Shown here: positions 3,901-22,421 of the stretch, piece by piece | Layout of the letters: each line of letters starts with the position of its first letter | Numbering within the stretch: the first letter of the stretch is position 1 | Virus record (IMG/VR): IMGVR_UViG_3300031933_000101 | Coordinates: 1 to 23,748 of that record | Source of the DNA: a virus | Direction: 5' to 3' (one strand) | Length of the DNA: 23,748 nt | Translations under genes and position numbers: made by a program | The notes under the pieces: generated by a model | Database searches by the model: none | What the model saw: the letters and a program-made list of their open reading frames with translations, nothing else | Told to the model about the DNA's origin: nothing

Positions 3901-6900
3901 TTTAAATAGCCCTTTGACACTTGGCAAGTTTATCTTGCCGAACAGCCGCACTACGCTGGCCTTGTCGATGCCTCCTTTCTCTACCAGCATATCCATAGCC
4001 TTGTAAACAGGCTCTTGCTTTATTTCTTCCTTGGCTTGTGCGCGGTATGCCTTGAGTCGTTCATCCAACTTGCCTACGCGCTGTTTGTCTTTCTTTTCTG
4101 TAGCCTCTGCGTTTTCGGACGCGCTGCGGTATTCTTTGATTTCCGCGTTGGTCGCTCCCGCCTCTTTTAAAAACTTCTCGTCGAGGATAGCGATCTGAGC
4201 CGCAAGTTCTCGCGCTTGTTGAATCTCCTCTTCTGTGGCAACCAGCCGGTCAAACACCCTTCGCAGGTCGTCGTTTATTTCTACCTGCAAGGCGTCGGCG
4301 GTGCGGTAAATCTTCACCAGCCACGACTTGAACTGACGGAACGCGGCACGCAATCCGGCAACGGGGGCTTCCCCTTCGCGCAAGTATGCCTCAAAGCCTC
4401 GCGCAAATTGCTCGTGCTGTTCCGTGGTCAGCTCACCGTCAACGCCGAGCCATTCCTTAATGGCTTTCCACTCTTCGACCTGCACGCCGTAGGTTTCGGC
4501 TACGTGCTGCAAGTCGCTTAAAAAGAAATGACCAAGTTCATGCAGAAAGGTGGACAGGTTTGCGCTCTCGAAAAGCGTGATAAGCGTTTTCCCGTCGCCG
4601 GTAAGTATTGCACCACGGGGGGCGGTGTCGGTGCGGAAGAACGTACCTTGTCCTCCACCCTGATAAAGATGGTCTTCTCCAACCTTCTCGGCGACGGAGT
4701 TATCAAAAAGCATAGCCCCGTTGCTGGTCTTTATCCCAACTATCTCGTTCGGCTCTATGACGTTTTCATAAATCCATTCATCAAATTGGCCGCGATTCCA
4801 GTCCCACATATCGGCACTGTCAACAATATCGGCAGGGTCCAGTGCCGCGACAAAATCATCAACGCTTAACTCTTCGACGGAAGCCGGGAGCCTGCCTTTC
4901 TCTTCATCCGCAAGATAAGCATCGCGTGCGAGTTCTTGGAACTCCGCAACCGGCATCAGCCTACTTATGGGTACGCGCCACGCAGTATCGCCAAAATGCG
5001 AGATAGCGTCCTGGTCATCGGCCCACTGCGACCATTCATCTTCGTTCAGGGTTTCGCCCTTGAATCGGTAGACATATTCTTTTTTGCTTTGCTGAAACTG
5101 CACCTGCCCCAACTGGTGAAGCTCGGCAAACTCGTCAAAATTCTGCCGCTGAATGGTGATGCCGAATCGTTTTAGATGTTCCGCCGCTTCAATTCCGGTC
5201 AGCTTTGCCAACACGTTGGCGCGGGCGATGATCGGCATAATGCTGTACGAGGCGTTGTCACCCTTCACCCCTGCGTCTTCTAGCTGGGCCTTAAGGTCGG
5301 CTTCAATTTGATCTACCATGTCAGGAGAAATTAGACGCCGTTGCTCTTCATCGTACAGCTCTTTAATCCGGACGTTCGCGGCACTTTCGGCTTGCACATC
5401 GGCCTCGGCTGCGTTAACCGTGGTTTCCTCTGCGCTGATACTCAGATCGTTCTGGAATAACGTCATGGCTTGGTCGGTACCGACGCCCGCAGCAACCTTC
5501 CCGAAGTCCATTTCTACTGCGCCACCGGTTTGTAACGCCGTGATAAGCTCGGTTCGGCTTACACCATACTGCTCCGCCCATGTCGTTACTTCCTGCTGAG
5601 TCATGCCCTGTTCATCGACCAGCGTTTCAATGATGCGGTCTGATTGAAGATATATCTTCTCCACGCCGTTTTTCCGCCCAACGCGGCTCATGAATTCGGC
5701 AAACGCTTCTGGCGACCGCTCCTTCAACCGCGACGCCTCGGCGGATGAGGCAACATCAACCATCTTGTTTTTCCGAACCTCCGCTTCCGTCTTGGCTTTG
5801 TGAGCGGCTTGGATGTCTCCGGCAAGGGTAACGCCACCTCCAGCCATGCCGAGCACCGCCATGCCTTTCCCGACCTTTGCGGCCACCTGTTGCAACTGCT
5901 CCATAGTCGCGGGGTCTTTGATCGTCTGCACAATGCCCTGGTCCTGCAACACCCCGCTGACGACAATGTTAGTCAATTCCTGCGCCATTTCGGTCGTAAC
6001 TTCGCCGGTCCACGCCATTGCGTAGTTTTTGGCGAAATCGAAAAACGCTTTGCGAATTGTCGGGTTGGAAAGCACCAAGCCCTTAACGCCGTTCGACATA
6101 ACTTTTCGCAACCCAGGAATGACTTTCGCCAGAGCCGAAAAGCCGACCGTTTCTAGGGTGGCGTTGGCGACACCGACAAGCTCGGCGGCTACGGCGGCTG
6201 TTTTGTCGTCTATCTGGTTGCCTTCGCCGTCCTGCAAGGTGCGAAACTCGCGGAACGCCTGCCCCGCTTCCACGTCGTGCGCATGCTCGAAATACCCAAC
6301 GCGGAGACCTATCCCAGCACCAGCCAAGGCCCCGGCAGGGGCGGTAATCGGTGCGGCAATCTCTCCGGTAGGTGCTGCGGCCACAGCTCCGGCACCGGCA
6401 CCTGTTATAGCACCGGTCAAGCCGCGTTCCATAACTTTAGGCGACTTCATCGACTCGAACATTTGGCCGACAAGCTCAGACGCTGCCGGGATGAATGATG
6501 ACAGGCCCGTATCTGTGGTCTCATAATTGCTGGCCGCGTCGAGCTTGGCGAGGTATTCAAGCTGATCGGGAGGTAAGTCTTTGCCCTGCAATATGAGCCG
6601 CCGCCGTTGTTCCCACAGCACCCCGCCCCGGTCCATTGCTTGTCCGGAAATGAATTCGCGGTATGTGTCGGTGCCCTTGACGAAACCAGGAACGAGAGAC
6701 GAAGAAAGCCCCCCAATGTTCTTCACGGCCTCCGCGTTTACAGCTTCCTGCTGCTGCTTTTTCAAAGCGGATGTCTTTTCCTCAATGGTGGCGAGGTTCT
6801 CAAGATCGTCCTGTGCCAGCGACATGAACCATGCATCTCTCGTCTGCCCTACAAGCACGGGGGCGCGGTCCCGCAACTTGTCGAAATCAGGCATATTTGC

Positions 6901-17788: not shown

Positions 17789-19339
17789 CTATAGGTTTTC
17801 GAACGGGTCGTATGCTTCCTGCCCCCTGTTTAACTCATCGTAAAAACCGCCCCTTACGTCAGGGTCCGGGAATTCCGCGCCTAGATCCGGGTCAACTATG
17901 CGTGCGATGTTGTCGAGCATGTCATCATGGATGCAGACCGGGAAACATATGTATTCCTCGTCGACGAAGAGCTTTACATAGTCAGCCATCTTCCCATCGT
18001 GCAACATAAACGGCAGGTGGTGCGGCATCCAAAACCGCCCGGTCTCAAATATGGGAATCAGTTTGCGGATACGGTCAAACTTCGACATCGGCCCACCAAG
18101 CGGCGTGATGTCAAAATGGTATGTCTCCTGATGCTGCTTATCCTCAATATGCTCGATGTCCGAGTCCTTGCCGTATTTCTCGTAGCCAACAGCCAGCGGG
18201 CGATACTTTTTGTGAAACTCGAACAGCTTCTTAGTTCGCTCCGTCAAATTAAGGCGGTCGCGTATGCCGTCAATGAGATAATAATTCCTGTCCGGGCCAA
18301 GCCCAATCACCACCATTGAGGTGTAGTCGGAGCCTTTCTTTTTTTCTCCGGCGGGATCGACCAGAATGTAGCGGTTGAATAAGTCGCTCTCAATGGACGG
18401 ATAGAACCGCAACCAATCCAGTTGAAACCCTTGCGCTTCGTCGGCTGTTGGATTTTGCAGCATCTGACACCCGAAAACATACGGCCCCATGTCCCGCCTC
18501 TTGTCACTCAAGGCATCTGCAGACAAAAAAACCGGCTTGCCGTCTGGCTTGCCGGTATCTGTTGCCGGATAGATGCGTGGTGTTACCGCCTCGCGCTCCA
18601 TCATTGTTCTGTATGTGTCGTTGAAGTGGTACCTCGTACCTATGTGCCGCCGCCTGCCTCCGTGCGCCCCAAGGTTTAGCGACACCGCCCACCGCTCTGT
18701 GACCTTAGCGATCATTTCGGGAGTTGTTACAGACTCCAGGGTGACAACATCGTCATAGACTAGTAAATTAAAATGCTTCGACGTCGGCTGCCCGTCCACA
18801 AGCCCCCACGCCTCTACTGTGGCCTCTTTTGGATTGCCTTTACGTTTGACGATAATGCCGCTATCTAGAGACCATTTTGGGGCCTCGCGACGTGGGTTGT
18901 CCCACAACACATCAGGGTAGACCTCCTTGAGCAGGGTGTTATGCTCAAACTCCTGCATGATCTGCGCTAAAAACGCTTTAGCGATAGGACGTGTGCAGGA
19001 AAATATCCCGGCGGTAACCTCCTGGCTCCAGTGAAACGAGTCCGCGCTGTGTGAGTCGAGAACGTCTTGTATCGTCCGCCCGAACGTTATCAGCGTCGAT
19101 TTATAATGCTCTCGCGCCCACAGATCTAAATAGCCGTCCGGTCTCTGCTGCACCTCACTGCACCGGTCAAACAACCAGTCACGATCGATGTCCCGACGAT
19201 GAAGCAACCTTGTCAGCAGGAAAAACAAATCACGCCGCCCGAGCTCATTCATCGTCTTGACGATGCAGCCGTCCTTTTCCGCATCATGAAGGATGTCAGC
19301 ATAAAATTCATTCGCTTGTTTTCTGCTCGTAAATTTCAT
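17789..19339 (-). CDS. terL: Terminase large subunit
   Basis: This is the DNA-packaging motor, an ATPase plus nuclease. In the 516-residue form starting at 19339, the ATPase shows a Walker A-like loop AREHYKST (75-82), a Walker B NLLVYDDVV with the acidic pair at 196-197, and a coupling-motif-like GTRYH (234-238). The RNase H-type nuclease has its metal ligands at D328 (YILVDPAG), probably E387 (VGYEKYGK) and D472/D473 (CIHDDMLDNIA). I chose MKFTSRKQAN because GGAG lies 8 bases upstream. Upstream in-frame starts (19381) would overlap TerS more. The 32-base overlap with terS is normal. It is a complete, apparently intact gene. Confidence 0.94.
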   Translation of the reverse strand: MKFTSRKQANEFYADILHDAEKDGCIVKTMNELGRRDLFFLLTRLLHRRDIDRDWLFDRCSEVQQRPDGYLDLWAREHYKSTLITFGRTIQDVLDSHSADSFHWSQEVTAGIFSCTRPIAKAFLAQIMQEFEHNTLLKEVYPDVLWDNPRREAPKWSLDSGIIVKRKGNPKEATVEAWGLVDGQPTSKHFNLLVYDDVVTLESVTTPEMIAKVTERWAVSLNLGAHGGRRRHIGTRYHFNDTYRTMMEREAVTPRIYPATDTGKPDGKPVFLSADALSDKRRDMGPYVFGCQMLQNPTADEAQGFQLDWLRFYPSIESDLFNRYILVDPAGEKKKGSDYTSMVVIGLGPDRNYYLIDGIRDRLNLTERTKKLFEFHKKYRPLAVGYEKYGKDSDIEHIEDKQHQETYHFDITPLGGPMSKFDRIRKLIPIFETGRFWMPHHLPFMLHDGKMADYVKLFVDEEYICFPVCIHDDMLDNIARIVDPDLGAEFPDPDVRGGFYDELNRGQEAYDPFENL

Positions 19340-19733
19340 GCATTTTCTCCGCCACAGCGGGGGATACCGAGTGATTAACATCTACAGCCCCGGCCACCTC
19401 GTGTTTCTCGGTATACAGCCCCGATGCTTTACCTCTGTTGACCTCTGCCGCGATGGCCGCTTGCCATTTCTGATCAGATTCGGCCAGGTCACGCAGGCGC
19501 TTTAGATCGTTTAGGTGCTGCTCAAGGGTGACTTGCGCCTTCTCGGCAGCGGGGGCCTGCAACTCCGCTATCCGTGCCGCGACCTTGCCGTTGTCCAGGA
19601 GCTCTTTAGCCCTGCGCCAGATCGTCGCCTCTTTCATTTTCCCGGCACTGTACGCCCGCCGATAGGCTTCGGACGCATTGCCCGTCTCGATGTAACCGAG
19701 GCAAAATTTTTCCTGTTTCGGCGTCAGTGCCAT
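19308..19733 (-). CDS. terS: Terminase small subunit (Terminase_2 type)
   Basis: The 141-residue product recognises the phage DNA to start packaging. The N-terminal MALTPKQEKFCLGYIETGNA, followed by SEAYRRAYSAGKM and RRAKELLDNGKVAARIAELQ, is the standard Terminase_2 helix-turn-helix region ('LT.KQ..F...Y...GNA.EAYR.AY'). A helical oligomerisation segment follows (about residues 70-105). Two consecutive ATGs exist, at 19736 and 19733. AGCAGG is better spaced for the second (6 bases). It overlaps the stop of the small gene upstream, and its end runs 32 bases into terL. Confidence 0.9.
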   Translation of the reverse strand: MALTPKQEKFCLGYIETGNASEAYRRAYSAGKMKEATIWRRAKELLDNGKVAARIAELQAPAAEKAQVTLEQHLNDLKRLRDLAESDQKWQAAIAAEVNRGKASGLYTEKHEVAGAVDVNHSVSPAVAEKMHEIYEQKTSE

Positions 19734-19876
19734 CATTTACCTGCTAACTTCCTCGCCTTCGGATTCAGACAATTGTTACCGCACATGCACCGCCGCCCCT
19801 TCTCCATAAACCGTCCCGCTGTGCAGTAGGCGCGGCAGTAAGCGGGATCAATGTCGGATTGCTTCAAATTCTTCAT
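19733..19876 (-). CDS. Small Cys-rich protein ahead of the terminase genes
   Basis: A 47-codon frame runs from ATG at 19876 to a TGA that overlaps the terS start. The product has two CxxxC-type pairs (AYCRAYC at about 14-18 and RRCMCGNNC at about 30-36) and a basic C-terminus (NPKARKLAGK), so it could bind a zinc ion. It has no clear Shine-Dalgarno sequence; a shorter form could begin at the internal MEKGRRC. Coupling to terS and the Cys spacing support a real gene. Comparable short zinc proteins occur beside terminase genes in other phages. Function unknown. Confidence 0.55.
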   Translation of the reverse strand: MKNLKQSDIDPAYCRAYCTAGRFMEKGRRCMCGNNCLNPKARKLAGK

Positions 19877-19926
19877 GATGTGGATAGTGTCCCCGTAATT
19901 TTTTTACATAATGTGTATTTTTCTTG

Positions 19927-19955
19927 TTGACACATGCCGCACCGCTTGGTATTGT
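19927..19955 (+). promoter_or_regulatory. Promoter of cassette 1 (first copy of the repeated leader)
   Basis: TTGACA (19927-19932), 17 bases, TATTGT (19950-19955), then TTTAACCACA and an ACAACTAACCAA leader. The same skeleton recurs at 20403 and 20891, but this copy lacks the palindrome between the boxes and has nine G's (19985-19993) where the others have AGGAGG. An A/T-rich tract lies upstream. The region 19877-19997 also faces the minus-strand late operon, for which I see no convincing promoter here. Confidence 0.75.
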
Positions 19956-19997
19956 TTAACCACAACGACGGAACAACTAACCAAGGGGGGGGGCAAC

Positions 19998-20156
19998 ATG
20001 ACCGCAACTTTCGAAGCAAACGGGAAAGCATGGAAGACTGACGAAGACACCCTCAACATTATGCGCGAATATAGAAACAGTGGTAACAGCTATATGGTAG
20101 CCGCTGTCTTCGAAATAGGCGTTGCTTGCGGCAGGATCGTCCAGGTGGCACAATGA
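19998..20156 (+). CDS. 52-aa hypothetical protein, first gene of cassette 1
   Basis: Start MTATFEANGKAW is chosen because it follows the G-rich ribosome site and the promoter copy 1 leader. The open frame upstream reaches through the promoter and is not used. The product is soluble with a helix around TLNIMREYRNSGNSYMVAAV and a possible second amphipathic helix after it. I do not recognise a family. Its stop overlaps the start of the HTH gene (ATGA), so the two are co-translated. It may act with the HTH protein, for example as a modulator, but this is only context. Confidence 0.75.
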   Translation: MTATFEANGKAWKTDEDTLNIMREYRNSGNSYMVAAVFEIGVACGRIVQVAQ

Positions 20157-20353
20157 CCCCAACAGCCCTCAAAGACTCCCTCAAGGCTCTCGGCTGGTCG
20201 CAATCGCGGCTGGCCGTGGCCCTAGGGGTAACGAAAACCACAGTTAGCAGGTGGGCGACAGGCCAAATACCCATTCCTCAGTATGCCGTTGCTTACCTTG
20301 CCCTAGCCATGAAAGTTAAAGAATTTTCCGGCGATTGCTTGCAGCCCCATTAA
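20153..20353 (+). CDS. Small XRE/Cro-like helix-turn-helix regulator
   Basis: The 66-residue product is one helix-turn-helix domain. After MTPTALKDSLKALGW come helix 2 SQSRLAVALG (16-25), the turn V-T, and recognition helix TKTTVSRWATG (27-37), then IPIPQYAVAYLALAMKVKEF. It is Cro-sized, lacks a separate dimerisation domain, and begins at an ATGA overlap with the 52-aa gene. It resembles the C-terminal domain of the 131-aa gene at 21295. It is a candidate to bind the 16-bp palindrome in promoter copies 2 and 3, or a site elsewhere. Its target is not known. Confidence 0.88.
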   Translation: MTPTALKDSLKALGWSQSRLAVALGVTKTTVSRWATGQIPIPQYAVAYLALAMKVKEFSGDCLQPH

Positions 20354-20367
20354 TTCGGGGCTTTTTT
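20343..20367 (+). terminator. Terminator of cassette 1
   Basis: AGCCCC (20343-20348) pairs with GGGGCT (20357-20362) and a run of T's follows. The TAA stop of the HTH gene lies in the loop. It is almost identical to the terminator at 21680. Confidence 0.85.
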
Positions 20368-20402
20368 ATTTTTATTTTTCTGCAATTTTTTATCTTTTCC
20401 TG

Positions 20403-20431
20403 TTGACACACCGAACGGTGTGCGGTATAGT
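20403..20431 (+). promoter_or_regulatory. Promoter of cassette 2 with palindromic operator
   Basis: TTGACA (20403-20408), 17 bases, TATAGT (20426-20431). The 16-bp palindrome CACACCGAACGGTGTG (20407-20422, two 7-base arms around AA) fills the spacer and overlaps the -35 box, so a bound protein would block RNA polymerase. The following leader (TTTAATCACAGTGAGGGACA to AACAGGAGG) is conserved with copy 3. Confidence 0.9.
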
Positions 20432-20472
20432 TTAATCACAGTGAGGGACAAACTAACTAACAGGAGGACATT

Positions 20473-20781
20473 ATGATCATCAGCAGCCAGCGTTACATCA
20501 ATGAAGAAATCGTAGCCGAAAAGATCGCCGCCGAGGATTTCGAAGTCATGCTTAGCCCCGAGTTCGAGATTGATGGCGCAACCTACCAGATTGTTCTTGA
20601 CGGCCACCACTCCCTGCAAGCTGCCAAGCAAGCCGGCGTTGCCCCCTCCTTCTGGGTTGCTGACTGCTCCGACCATGACGCCATCGGTCTCCTCGAAGCT
20701 GGCGCCATTGATGATTTTATGATCGCCGTCCACATGGGTAACGACTACTACAACACCGAAACCGGAAAGGATGTCTGGTAA
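20473..20781 (+). CDS. Protein with ParB-like DGHHS motif, first gene of cassette 2
   Basis: The 102-residue product begins with MIISSQRYINEEIVAEKIA and has a motif IVLDGHHSLQAAKQAGVAPS at about residues 40-59. This resembles the ParB/sulfiredoxin-like nucleotide-binding core (usually DGHHR or DG.HR followed by a helix), here with Ser in place of Arg. The rest is acidic, with an end rich in Asp and Tyr (HMGNDYYNTETGKDVW). It is far shorter than a ParB and lacks its DNA-binding helix-turn-helix, so partition is unlikely. A small nucleotide-binding or modifying role is possible. AGGAGG lies 5 bases before the ATG. It is directly controlled by promoter copy 2. Confidence 0.88.
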   Translation: MIISSQRYINEEIVAEKIAAEDFEVMLSPEFEIDGATYQIVLDGHHSLQAAKQAGVAPSFWVADCSDHDAIGLLEAGAIDDFMIAVHMGNDYYNTETGKDVW

Positions 20782-20894
20782 TGAAACTGACCACTGAGCA
20801 CAGCGCATCGAGCTATGGGATGCCCGTCTTTGTAGACGACGACAATCAACTGGTTATTCAAAATATTTTTCACTTTTTTTATTTTCCCTGTTGA
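20781..20894 (+). CDS. 37-aa ORF coupled to the DGHHS gene
   Basis: The ATG shares one base with the TAA of the preceding gene (TAATG), and the frame stays open for 37 codons, ending inside the -35 box of promoter copy 3. The first part, MKLTTEHSASSYGMPVFVDD, looks like a soluble protein; the last ten residues (IFHFFYFPC) are simply the translation of the T-rich promoter upstream tract. It has no ribosome site of its own beyond coupling. It could be an eroded or truncated gene cut short by the arrival of promoter copy 3. Confidence 0.45.
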   Translation: MKLTTEHSASSYGMPVFVDDDNQLVIQNIFHFFYFPC

Positions 20895-20919
20895 CACACC
20901 GAACGGTGTGCGGTATAGT
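20891..20919 (+). promoter_or_regulatory. Promoter of cassette 3 with palindromic operator
   Basis: TTGACA (20891-20896), 17 bases, TATAGT (20914-20919), with the same CACACCGAACGGTGTG palindrome at 20895-20910. Promoter, operator and leader differ from copy 2 by only five bases from CCTGTTGACA to the start codon, which fits recent duplication or strong selection. Confidence 0.9.
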
Positions 20920-20960
20920 TTAACCACAGTGAGGGACAAACCAACCAACAGGAGGATGTT

Positions 20961-21251
20961 ATGATCGAGCTGACCATCAAACGCCCCAACGGAGAAATCG
21001 AAAAAGTGGCTACCGAATTTGCCGGTATGACAAAGGTTTTGTTTGGTAAAATCCAAGAAGCAACCCGCAACGCAGGCCGTGGCGAAGTCCTTGTCTGGGA
21101 ACTCGTTGACACCCGCACTGACGACGAAAAGGCCGCACTTGCCAAACAAGACCGAATCGAAAGCATTAAACAACAAATCCGTAAAGCCCATGACCGCAAT
21201 GATGCGATCGCCGTTTCGAAACTGGAAAAAGAACTGGCGGCTATCAAATAA
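20961..21251 (+). CDS. 96-aa hypothetical protein, first gene of cassette 3
   Basis: The product has a beta-type N-terminus (MIELTIKRPNGEIEKVATEF, then GRGEVLVWELVDTR) and a long charged helical C-terminus (EKAALAKQDRIESIKQQIRK to KLEKELAAIK), which may form a coiled coil. There is no Cys or membrane segment. CAGGAGG precedes the ATG, and the first six bases of the gene (ATGATC) match those of cassette 2. I do not recognise a family. It shares an operator with the DGHHS gene, so the two are likely expressed together. Confidence 0.82.
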   Translation: MIELTIKRPNGEIEKVATEFAGMTKVLFGKIQEATRNAGRGEVLVWELVDTRTDDEKAALAKQDRIESIKQQIRKAHDRNDAIAVSKLEKELAAIK

Positions 21252-21294
21252 CCACCACACAAATAGCCCCGTTTCGTCGGGGAGGGAGGAAGTT

Positions 21295-21690
21295 ATGAAA
21301 TTTGTGAACCCTTTTCACAACACCGAAATCGACGTCGAGCCAATATCTGTCGGGGTTACAATCTACGATGAGCCGTGCGCCGAATTTACGGAATCTCAAA
21401 TTGAAAGCATCAGCATGGAACTCTGCGGTATCAAACAATGTACTTGCTGCAAATTTGAAAACCACTGCTACGATGAAGACGGCAAAAGTTATTTGATTAT
21501 GGTTAAAACTCAGGCCATGACAAAGGATGAACTCAAAGCCGCACAACTCACCCTTGGCCTCACCAACCAGCAATTAGCCGACGACCTTAAAGTTTCCCTC
21601 CGTGCCGTCGAAATGTGGCGGCAGGGGGCTAGGCCAATTCCTGGCCCGGTAGAAGTTGCGATTAATCTAATGCTTAATCAGCCCCGCTAG
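21295..21690 (+). CDS. Cys-cluster / helix-turn-helix regulator
   Basis: The 131-residue product has two parts. Residues 1-73 carry a Cys cluster, C44, C49, C51, C52 and C58 in ELCGIKQCTCCKFENHC, which could hold a zinc ion or an iron-sulfur cluster. Residues 75-131 are an HTH domain: MTKDELKAAQLTLGL, helix 2 TNQQLADDLK, recognition helix SLRAVEMWRQG, then ARPIPGPVEVAINL. The HTH resembles the 66-aa protein at 20153, including the 'W..G..PIP' end. The start at 21295 follows GGGAGGGAGG; the longer open frame upstream overlaps the 96-aa gene and is not used. The domain order (sensor-like N-terminus plus HTH) suggests a ligand- or redox-responsive regulator; this is inference. Confidence 0.85.
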   Translation: MKFVNPFHNTEIDVEPISVGVTIYDEPCAEFTESQIESISMELCGIKQCTCCKFENHCYDEDGKSYLIMVKTQAMTKDELKAAQLTLGLTNQQLADDLKVSLRAVEMWRQGARPIPGPVEVAINLMLNQPR

Positions 21691-21703
21691 TTCGGGGCTT
21701 TTT
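21680..21703 (+). terminator. Terminator of cassette 3
   Basis: AGCCCCG (21680-21686) pairs with CGGGGCT (21693-21699) and T's follow. The TAG stop of the HTH gene is in the loop. The last codons of the convergent minus-strand gene overlap it. Confidence 0.85.
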
Positions 21704-21809: not shown

Positions 21810-21919
21810 CCCCACACCACACACGCAAACACGATGCCTGTTGTCAGGCCGAACCCTGCGGAAGCGGAAATGGCAGCTATGTGAGCAAGGCAGTTGATGT
21901 TTTCGATAACTCGTTTCAT
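21806..21919 (-). CDS. 37-aa single-pass membrane peptide
   Basis: ATG at 21919 overlaps the stop of the DUF3310 gene (ATGA), and its TGA overlaps the next start (ATGA). The product MKRVIENINCLAHIAAISAS continues with GFGLTTGIVFACVVWG. It has a short basic N-terminus and about 27 mostly hydrophobic residues (from 10 to the end), so it should be an inner-membrane peptide. Overlapping coupling on both sides argues that it is translated. Function is unknown; small phage membrane peptides can regulate lysis or inhibit host proteins. Confidence 0.6.
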   Translation of the reverse strand: MKRVIENINCLAHIAAISASAGFGLTTGIVFACVVWG

Positions 21920-22263
21920 TTGGCCTGCATCCTCTCGATTTCAAAATCAATGTATCGCCGCGCCTTTTTCAGATCCTCGATGGCGGCACCTTTTTTCCCA
22001 GCCCTCAGCACATACTTGACCACGTTGCCCAAACAGAAATTAAGCTCTCGCGTCACCTGGATAACCTCGATAGGCTCCCCGCATTTGCACCTGACCCCGG
22101 TGTCCGTGTAATGCGGTGGATGGTTAACCATGTCGGCCAACTCGCCTTGCTTGTCGTGCGCCACTGTTGGCTGTCTTGATACGCAACCCTCATTACTGCA
22201 CTGCAAAAAATTCCCGCTCCTCTCCAGTTCACTGCCGCAATAGCCACAACAAACAGCATCCAT
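21916..22263 (-). CDS. DUF3310 protein with N-terminal zinc ribbon
   Basis: The 115-residue product has two parts. Residues 5-27 form a zinc-ribbon pattern (CCGYCG to QCSNEGC). Residues 46-115 match DUF3310, a family found in T7 gp1.7-like and many other phage proteins tied to nucleotide metabolism: VNHPPHYT, EPIEVIQVTRELNFCLGNVV, KYVLRAGKKG and DLKKARRYIDFEIER. An extra CKC pair lies inside the DUF3310 part (59-61). Start 22263 is chosen because GGGGAGG lies 7-8 bases upstream and the ATG overlaps the previous stop (TGATG); the open frame extends further up but lies over another gene. Activity (nucleotide kinase in T7) is inferred from the family and not certain here. Confidence 0.85.
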   Translation of the reverse strand: MDAVCCGYCGSELERSGNFLQCSNEGCVSRQPTVAHDKQGELADMVNHPPHYTDTGVRCKCGEPIEVIQVTRELNFCLGNVVKYVLRAGKKGAAIEDLKKARRYIDFEIERMQAK

Positions 22264-22421
22264 CACTCCACCTCCCCGTAAATATCCCCGCCTCTGCACT
22301 CGCTCTGCGGCAACTCGCCACTCGCGATGAGGCACGCCTGCGGACATTTATGCCGGTCTTGGCATCCCCGGCAGCATGCGCCGTCTTTTCCCCTTATTTC
22401 GCAGCGGCAGCGTGTTTTCAT
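22263..22421 (-). CDS. 52-aa Cys-rich protein
   Basis: A 52-codon gene between two others: ATG at 22421 overlaps the previous stop (ATGA), and its TGA overlaps the DUF3310 start. GAGG stands 5 bases before the ATG. The product, starting MKTRCRCEIRGKDGACCRGC and continuing QDRHKCPQAC, has eight Cys in 52 residues (C5, C7, C16, C17, C20, C26, C30, C42) and probably binds one or two zinc ions. Such short multi-Cys proteins are usual in phage early regions. No known function. Confidence 0.7.
   Translation of the reverse strand: MKTRCRCEIRGKDGACCRGCQDRHKCPQACLIASGELPQSECRGGDIYGEVE

Follow-up and report, generated by a model that had tools for sequence, protein, structure and literature searches.

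The DNA analysed here, referred to as the window, is a 23.7-kb genome fragment of an uncultured phage. The packaging and structural genes recognised in it, namely those for the terminase small and large subunits, the portal (head-tail adaptor), the major head protein and tail proteins, all point leftward. An island at 19927-21700 runs rightward within this leftward genome, divergent from the terminase small subunit gene terS, and is bounded by the terS side (19308-19876, minus strand) and by a DUF3310 gene (21916-22347, minus strand). The island comprises two operons, each with a small HTH gene (HTH1 or HTH2) in last position, followed by a near-identical terminator. Operon A consists of P1, a 52-aa gene, HTH1 (66 aa) and its terminator. 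Operon B runs from P2 through a 102-aa gene and a 37-aa stub to P3, and continues with a 96-aa gene, the gene for a 131-aa protein that has HTH2 as its C-terminal 57 residues, and its terminator. The features of the island and its left flank are listed below.

19308-19736, minus strand: terminase small subunit gene (terS), left neighbour of the island (Pfam Terminase_2, 8.9e-14; phrog_51, 4e-21)
19733-19876, minus strand: 47-aa ORF in the gap between terS and the island (ORF list)
19927-19955, plus strand: predicted P1 core promoter, TTGACA-N17-TATTGT, HTH1 class (box positions from the sequence, class by comparison)
19956-19997, plus strand: P1 leader, which includes the poly-G tract (G9, 19985-19993)
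19998-20156, plus strand: 52-aa cargo gene of operon A, overlapping the HTH1 start (ATGA); without family match
20153-20353, plus strand: HTH1, 66-aa XRE/Cro-like DNA-binding protein (HTH_3, 6.4e-08, above cut-off; phrog_4779, 1.8e-10)
20343-20362, plus strand: predicted intrinsic terminator of operon A (repeat search)
20403-20431, plus strand: predicted P2 core promoter, TTGACA-N17-TATAGT, HTH2 class
20407-20422, no strand: palindrome CACACCGAACGGTGTG inside P2 (p = 0.005)
20411-20425, no strand: class dyad CCGAACGGTGTGCGG (pattern CCGnACnnnGTnCGG) inside P2, the better conserved operator candidate (comparison across units)
20432-20472, plus strand: P2 leader, conserved and unstructured, CACAGTGAGGGACAAAC...AACAGGAGG
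20473-20781, plus strand: 102-aa cargo gene, phrog_4807, with relatives in Burkholderia and Salmonella phages
20781-20894, plus strand: 37-aa ORF, probably a gene stub, with its stop codon inside the P3 -35 box (junction inferred from L015)
20891-20919, plus strand: predicted P3 core promoter, TTGACA-N17-TATAGT, HTH2 class
20895-20910, no strand: palindrome CACACCGAACGGTGTG inside P3
20899-20913, no strand: class dyad CCGAACGGTGTGCGG inside P3
20920-20960, plus strand: P3 leader, conserved
20961-21251, plus strand: 96-aa cargo gene, without confident family
21295-21690, plus strand: 131-aa in-frame fusion of an N-terminal domain with HTH2, the Met of HTH2 being at 21517
21680-21699, plus strand: predicted intrinsic terminator of operon B, inside an 86% repeat of the operon A terminator region

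The initial annotation had described three copies of one promoter-leader block, and these were recovered with -35 boxes at 19927, 20403 and 20891, 17-nt spacers and the -10 boxes TATTGT, TATAGT and TATAGT. As it had also reported, there are 5 mismatches between copies 2 and 3 over the 77 positions from CCTGTTGACA through the ATG, both of these copies contain the palindrome CACACCGAACGGTGTG, and copy 1 carries the G9 tract. Each block had further been said to drive a small gene; each predicted promoter heads an operon rather than a single gene, and the P1 and P2 units both end with an HTH gene and a terminator. A repeat search returned a 113-nt repeat (20366-20478 and 20854-20966, 85% identity) and the 44-nt leader in three copies. 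Since the two terminator regions are near-copies as well, what was copied is the outline of the whole operon and goes beyond the promoter alone. The P2 and P3 promoters are near-consensus for sigma-70 (11 of 12 consensus matches), and a 7+2+7 inverted repeat in such a promoter has a chance probability of 0.005 when the hexamers are held fixed and the spacer is shuffled, the palindromes of P2 and P3 counting as one event because the two promoters are duplicates. The palindrome is absent elsewhere in the window at up to three mismatches (four strand-wise matches against 0.21 expected). A function of the leader as an RNA structure was rejected, as it folded no better than shuffled sequence (z about +1). 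The cassette adjoins terS, and its use as a packaging site was considered but set aside given its two to three occurrences, correct promoter spacing and a Shine-Dalgarno sequence before each ORF. Elsewhere in the window, a strong leftward promoter-like sequence, TTGACA-N18-TATACT (23170-23141, minus strand), contains the spacer direct repeat ATTCGCTA-N5-ATTCGCTA, exact only there, which is a candidate operator for leftward genes.

Comparison with close relatives showed where genes have been exchanged. L014 and L016 are 96-98% identical to the window over kilobases; this homology stops at 20483 and 20468, respectively, by the ATG of the P2 gene at 20473, and resumes at 21529, by the HTH2 ATG. 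The swap boundaries thus lie at two start codons. Between the P2 leader and HTH2, L014 and L016 each have a different set of genes, neither of which is related to that of the window, and L014 and L015 have cargo in common and different operators. The cargo has very probably been swapped by recombination. In L015, a promoter of the same type comes immediately after the terS-side flank and is preceded by ATTCAAAATATTTTTCACTTTTTTTATTTT, a near-copy of which sits just before P3 in the window. The simplest history would be that an L015-like ancestor with one operon gained the segment from P1 to the 37-aa ORF on its left, this ORF having presumably been cut where it met the old flank. The poly-G tract of the P1 leader, which serves operon A as Shine-Dalgarno sequence, is G9, G8 and G7 in the window, L014 and L016, respectively, where the operons otherwise match; this may reflect slippage, on/off switching of translation or an assembly error. 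Another relative of the window phage, G005 (L058, L059), encodes an Erf-type annealing protein, a CI-like XRE regulator and a replication initiator, a lambdoid-like and possibly temperate machinery that could drive mosaic exchange.

Most of the cargo has no homologs; the 102-aa protein is assigned to phrog_4807. Searches against Pfam, NCBIfam, PHROGs and PADLOC gave no match naming an anti-CRISPR or defence family, and the proposal that the cargo consists of known defence or toxin-antitoxin genes was dropped as no library match was confident. An anti-defence role is conceivable for these genes, although we hold this with rather less than even confidence.

More distant cassettes were retrieved through HTH2 or the leader in L061, L065 and L078. 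The large terminase subunits (TerL) of these phages belong to phrog_3717/phrog_2 (L061 and L065) and phrog_9 (L078), whereas that of the window belongs to phrog_38. In blastn comparisons, the window shared with L078 only the cassette (81% over 95 nt, 9e-16), with L065 the cassette (76%) plus 78 nt of HTH2 and nothing else, and with L061 the cassette, HTH2 and some downstream DNA. A cassette of about 100 bp is therefore common to phages with different terminases, and in the window, L061, L065 and L078 it is found close to terS on the opposite strand. One control unit copied before unrelated small genes, as first proposed, is seen both within this genome, in the repeats, and between phages. In the L061 phage, the reverse complement of L076 (3424-3460) carries a leader-only copy, CCACCACAGCGGGACAAACTAACCACACAGGAGG, without -35 or -10 boxes, that separates two genes of the same operon, as though a gene had come in with its leader.

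A scan of IMG/VR for the palindrome 16-mer gave 11 other exact matches, none of them preceded by TTGACA; in the absence of the -35 box these matches are attributed to chance, and the idea of the palindrome as a widespread motif was rejected. The exact extended promoter pattern had no match beyond the window, and degenerate patterns recovered the known relatives, L078 and the unrelated L077. Among 50,697 phage and 72,556 plasmid records covering cultured phages and plasmids, the window cassette found no match, and the L078 cassette found in cultured phages only 25-nt matches (E = 0.9, Gordonia phages). With a view to the host, TerL was compared with 85,000 genomes, which gave one relative at 55% identity, and the promoter had no match in 398 genomes of the phylum of that relative.

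The exact palindrome had been put forward as the operator, and in this form the proposal is not supported by the comparison of units, since the palindrome is broken in L014 and L016 (CACCCCGAACCCTGTG) and in L061, all of which have an identical or almost identical HTH2 recognition helix. The dyad common to HTH2-type units (window, L014/L016, L015, L061b and L065) is centred 3.5 bp downstream of the centre of the exact palindrome. The best shared symmetry of these units is CCGnACnnnGTnCGG, centred on spacer position 10, with p = 0.027 (0.047 without the window) by column shuffling that ignores kinship. HTH1-type units (window P1, L061a and L078) share a different symmetry centred on position 11 (p = 0.013, again by column shuffling with kinship ignored), which is perfect in L078 (TACCGCA-TGG-TGCGGTA). 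These p-values are modest, the sequences being few and related, and we treat them as leads because column shuffling leaves relatedness uncorrected. Taken one by one, L078, L065 and L068 each carry their own strong inverted repeat (p = 0.01, 0.01 and 0.03, respectively), and P1 and L061b have no significant dyad (p = 0.96 and 0.98). In this small sample, the class of dyad tracks the type of the terminal HTH. An operator-like dyad within the promoter is thus plausible from the alignment, and the exact palindrome of the window may be a stronger or second site peculiar to this phage. Copy 1 had been thought free of the repressor. P1, however, belongs to the second class, whose operons end in HTH1 and whose better-preserved member L078 has its own dyad, and it therefore more likely answers to a different repressor, HTH1. 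In L068 (5436-5464), a unit of the same operon plan contains another spacer palindrome, TACCCA-G-TGGGTA, and the HTH2 relative of this phage is distant (39%).

HTH1 and HTH2 are HTH proteins by homology, and HTH2 also by the fold of its model. In every HTH-type unit examined the HTH gene is last; in the window it is a small gene (<150 aa) at the 3′ end of an operon of short genes (<200 aa) on the same strand. HTH2, 57 aa long in the window, is a separate gene in L014, L015, L016 and L065. In the window it forms an in-frame fusion of 131 aa with one N-terminal domain, and in L061 (L076 reverse complement, 4671-5045) an in-frame fusion with another; the gene before HTH2 in L065 is a weak homolog of the N-terminal domain of the window fusion (32% over 47 aa). 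The HTH2 proteins of L014, L016 and L061 are 82-89% identical to that of the window, and the recognition helix SLRAVEMW is invariant across the class, as would be expected if all its members bind one core. Residue 19 of HTH2 (Gln or Ala) tracks the operator variant in six sequences, which are too few to count. In the AlphaFold model of the 131-aa protein the HTH2 domain is well predicted (helical core pLDDT about 87-91). The top PDB matches of the HTH2 model in Foldseek were C.Kpn2I, Aca2 (31% identity, rmsd 1.0), Aca10 and Aca1, with marginal E-values of 0.001-0.05 at which C proteins and HigA antitoxins, HigA2 included, score alike. Neither HTH1 nor HTH2 matched an Aca family model above cut-off, and the Aca2_YdiL model matched only the distant HTH of L068, below cut-off (17.4 against 23.8 bits). 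A PDB sequence search with HTH2 reached Aca3/Aca2 at E about 0.5, assigning no family, and searches of the HTH proteins against NCBIfam gave weak MqsA and HigA antitoxin matches below cut-off. Relatives of HTH1 are encoded near the terminase genes, on the opposite strand, in the Burkholderia phages BcepIL02 and BcepMigl.

The operon in L018 ends with a strand-helix-helix protein instead of an HTH, plausibly a ribbon-helix-helix protein according to a low-confidence single-sequence model (pTM 0.30), with a weak match to a PHROG transcription regulator (0.038). Its spacer is wholly different (TGACA-CC-TGTCA), and the change of both elements fits a joint replacement of regulator and operator. The suggestion that L018 has kept the leader with a different regulator found weak support (p between 0.009 and 0.32, according to which copy served for comparison).

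On balance, we favour the view that the island is a pair of mobile, autorepressed accessory ("moron"-like) operons that work like acr-aca operons. From the sequence we infer promoter activity, repression and the identity of the operators, as follows. The near-consensus sigma-70 promoter and the unstructured, Shine-Dalgarno-rich leader would allow host RNA polymerase and ribosomes to express the small cargo strongly from the moment of DNA entry. The final gene in each operon would then supply an XRE/Cro-like HTH dimer that turns the operon off by binding the dyad that its own promoter contains between the -35 and -10 boxes, with HTH2 acting on P2 and P3, and HTH1 more likely on P1; autorepression of this kind through the spacer dyad we judge likely. 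Promoter-leader and HTH gene would form the constant ends between which the cargo is recombined, and the cassette would pass from one phage to an unrelated one and there take up the site divergent from terS.

The palindrome might instead have no regulatory role, the cassette being a strong promoter, a leader and a recombination handle, comparable to the mobile promoter cassettes of T4-type phages, and the terminal HTH proteins acting elsewhere. Chance matches aside, only the window has the exact palindrome, which is broken in L014, L016 and L061 despite the high identity of their HTH2 proteins; the leader is conserved as much as the spacer in the aligned units, so the whole cassette may reflect recent common descent, and the Erf-type protein of G005 is a recombinase of the kind able to drive the exchange. 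We nevertheless regard this explanation as unlikely, as spacer positions 8, 12, 16 and 17, outside the hexamers, are invariant across both classes, the HTH2-type spacers hold their dyad even when the window is left out, and no HTH-type unit examined departs from the terminal position of the HTH gene. Less likely again is that the palindrome is bound by a lysogeny or host repressor encoded elsewhere, which would hold the operons silent or active in the prophage state, with the terminal HTH genes as cargo. The CI-like XRE protein of G005 is indeed encoded outside the island (L059:5229-5612, phrog_8, 2.5e-18), and a regulator gene could be missing from a fragment of this size. Lysogeny repressors, however, usually have several operators, and the window contains neither another copy of the palindrome nor a further copy of the CCGnACnnnGTnCGG dyad at up to one mismatch; the correspondence between dyad class and terminal HTH type, small as the sample is, also speaks against a repressor encoded elsewhere. 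Type II toxin-antitoxin operons in HigBA/MqsRA order, in which the toxin gene leads, the HTH antitoxin gene closes the operon and a promoter palindrome mediates autorepression, share the gene order and would accommodate the sub-cut-off MqsA/HigA matches and the HigA2 fold neighbour, but are very improbable here, since classical antitoxins pair with a fixed toxin and up to three unrelated small genes, none of a known toxin family, precede nearly the same HTH2 in the window, L014 and L016.

Several known systems come close to mobile autorepressed operons of the kind we favour. Arbiol et al. 2010 are said to have described in T4-type phages a mobile cassette made of a short early promoter and a stem-loop, which lies at module borders and aids gene shuffling. 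The unstructured leaders of the present cassette lack such a PeSL stem-loop, and the promoter here contains a dyad and is matched by an HTH gene at the far end. The initial annotation had considered the control system a candidate for an undescribed one, yet acr-aca operons are known to be laid out in this way, with a dyad in the promoter and an HTH autorepressor as the last gene (PMC9410906). In the acr-aca families tested, the core promoter contains an inverted repeat and is repressed by the HTH protein encoded last (PMC9410906), and the same aca recombines frequently with different acr genes (PMC9765179). The units described here resemble these operons (PMC9410906, PMC9410881, PMC9765179) in their near-consensus promoter, their core-promoter dyad (in P2 and P3; P1 alone has none), their small same-strand cargo without homologs, the last position of a small HTH gene, the change of cargo against a constant HTH, and the presence of Aca2, Aca10 and Aca1 among the fold neighbours of HTH2. 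The fusion of a cargo domain to HTH2 in the window also recalls Acr-Aca fusions such as AcrIIA1, although the HTH is C-terminal here and N-terminal in AcrIIA1. In contrast to acr-aca operons, HTH1 and HTH2 match no named Aca family by sequence and the operons contain no known Acr, for which reasons we do not file them as members; furthermore, the promoter-leader of about 100 bp is itself conserved across unrelated phages and occurs two to three times per genome.

In archaeal viruses, unrelated small early genes share one regulatory sequence, with the Aca-like Aca8 as proposed repressor (PMC11065993). That sequence is a BRE/TATA promoter, mostly before single genes at genome ends (PMC11065993), as opposed to the sigma-70 promoters of multigene operons beside terS seen here. 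The SAS/ESAS repeats of cluster K mycobacteriophages stand before numerous small genes from different families; about half have an inverted repeat, the consensus of which varies by subcluster (PMC3203893). SAS is the sequence GGGATAGGAGCCC at the start codon, without a shown promoter (PMC3203893), whereas the cassette is a full sigma-70 promoter with leader; GGGATAGGAGCCC is absent from the aligned leaders.

What is unusual in the present case is the combination of a mobile cassette with a fixed place beside terS. The main novelty is that a short promoter cassette moves between unrelated phages to one site, exchanging cargo against a constant regulator. More tentatively still than for the anti-defence role of the cargo, we suggest that tailed phages possess a dedicated cargo slot, in which the cassette and its matched HTH autorepressor travel together, always beside terS and against the late genes, and counter-defence cargo is freely exchanged. 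Were this so, HTH1 and HTH2 would represent new Aca-like families and the cassette could serve as bait for anti-defence genes in uncultured phages. Genes of this type resemble one another little in sequence and are recognised mainly by their neighbours. A conserved cassette with changing cargo would offer a DNA handle for their search in uncultured phages, as in archaeal viruses (PMC11065993). The relatives also form a natural series, in which the same HTH meets an altered operator and the same operator meets altered cargo, and which could be used to test the co-evolution of repressor and operator as modules are exchanged.
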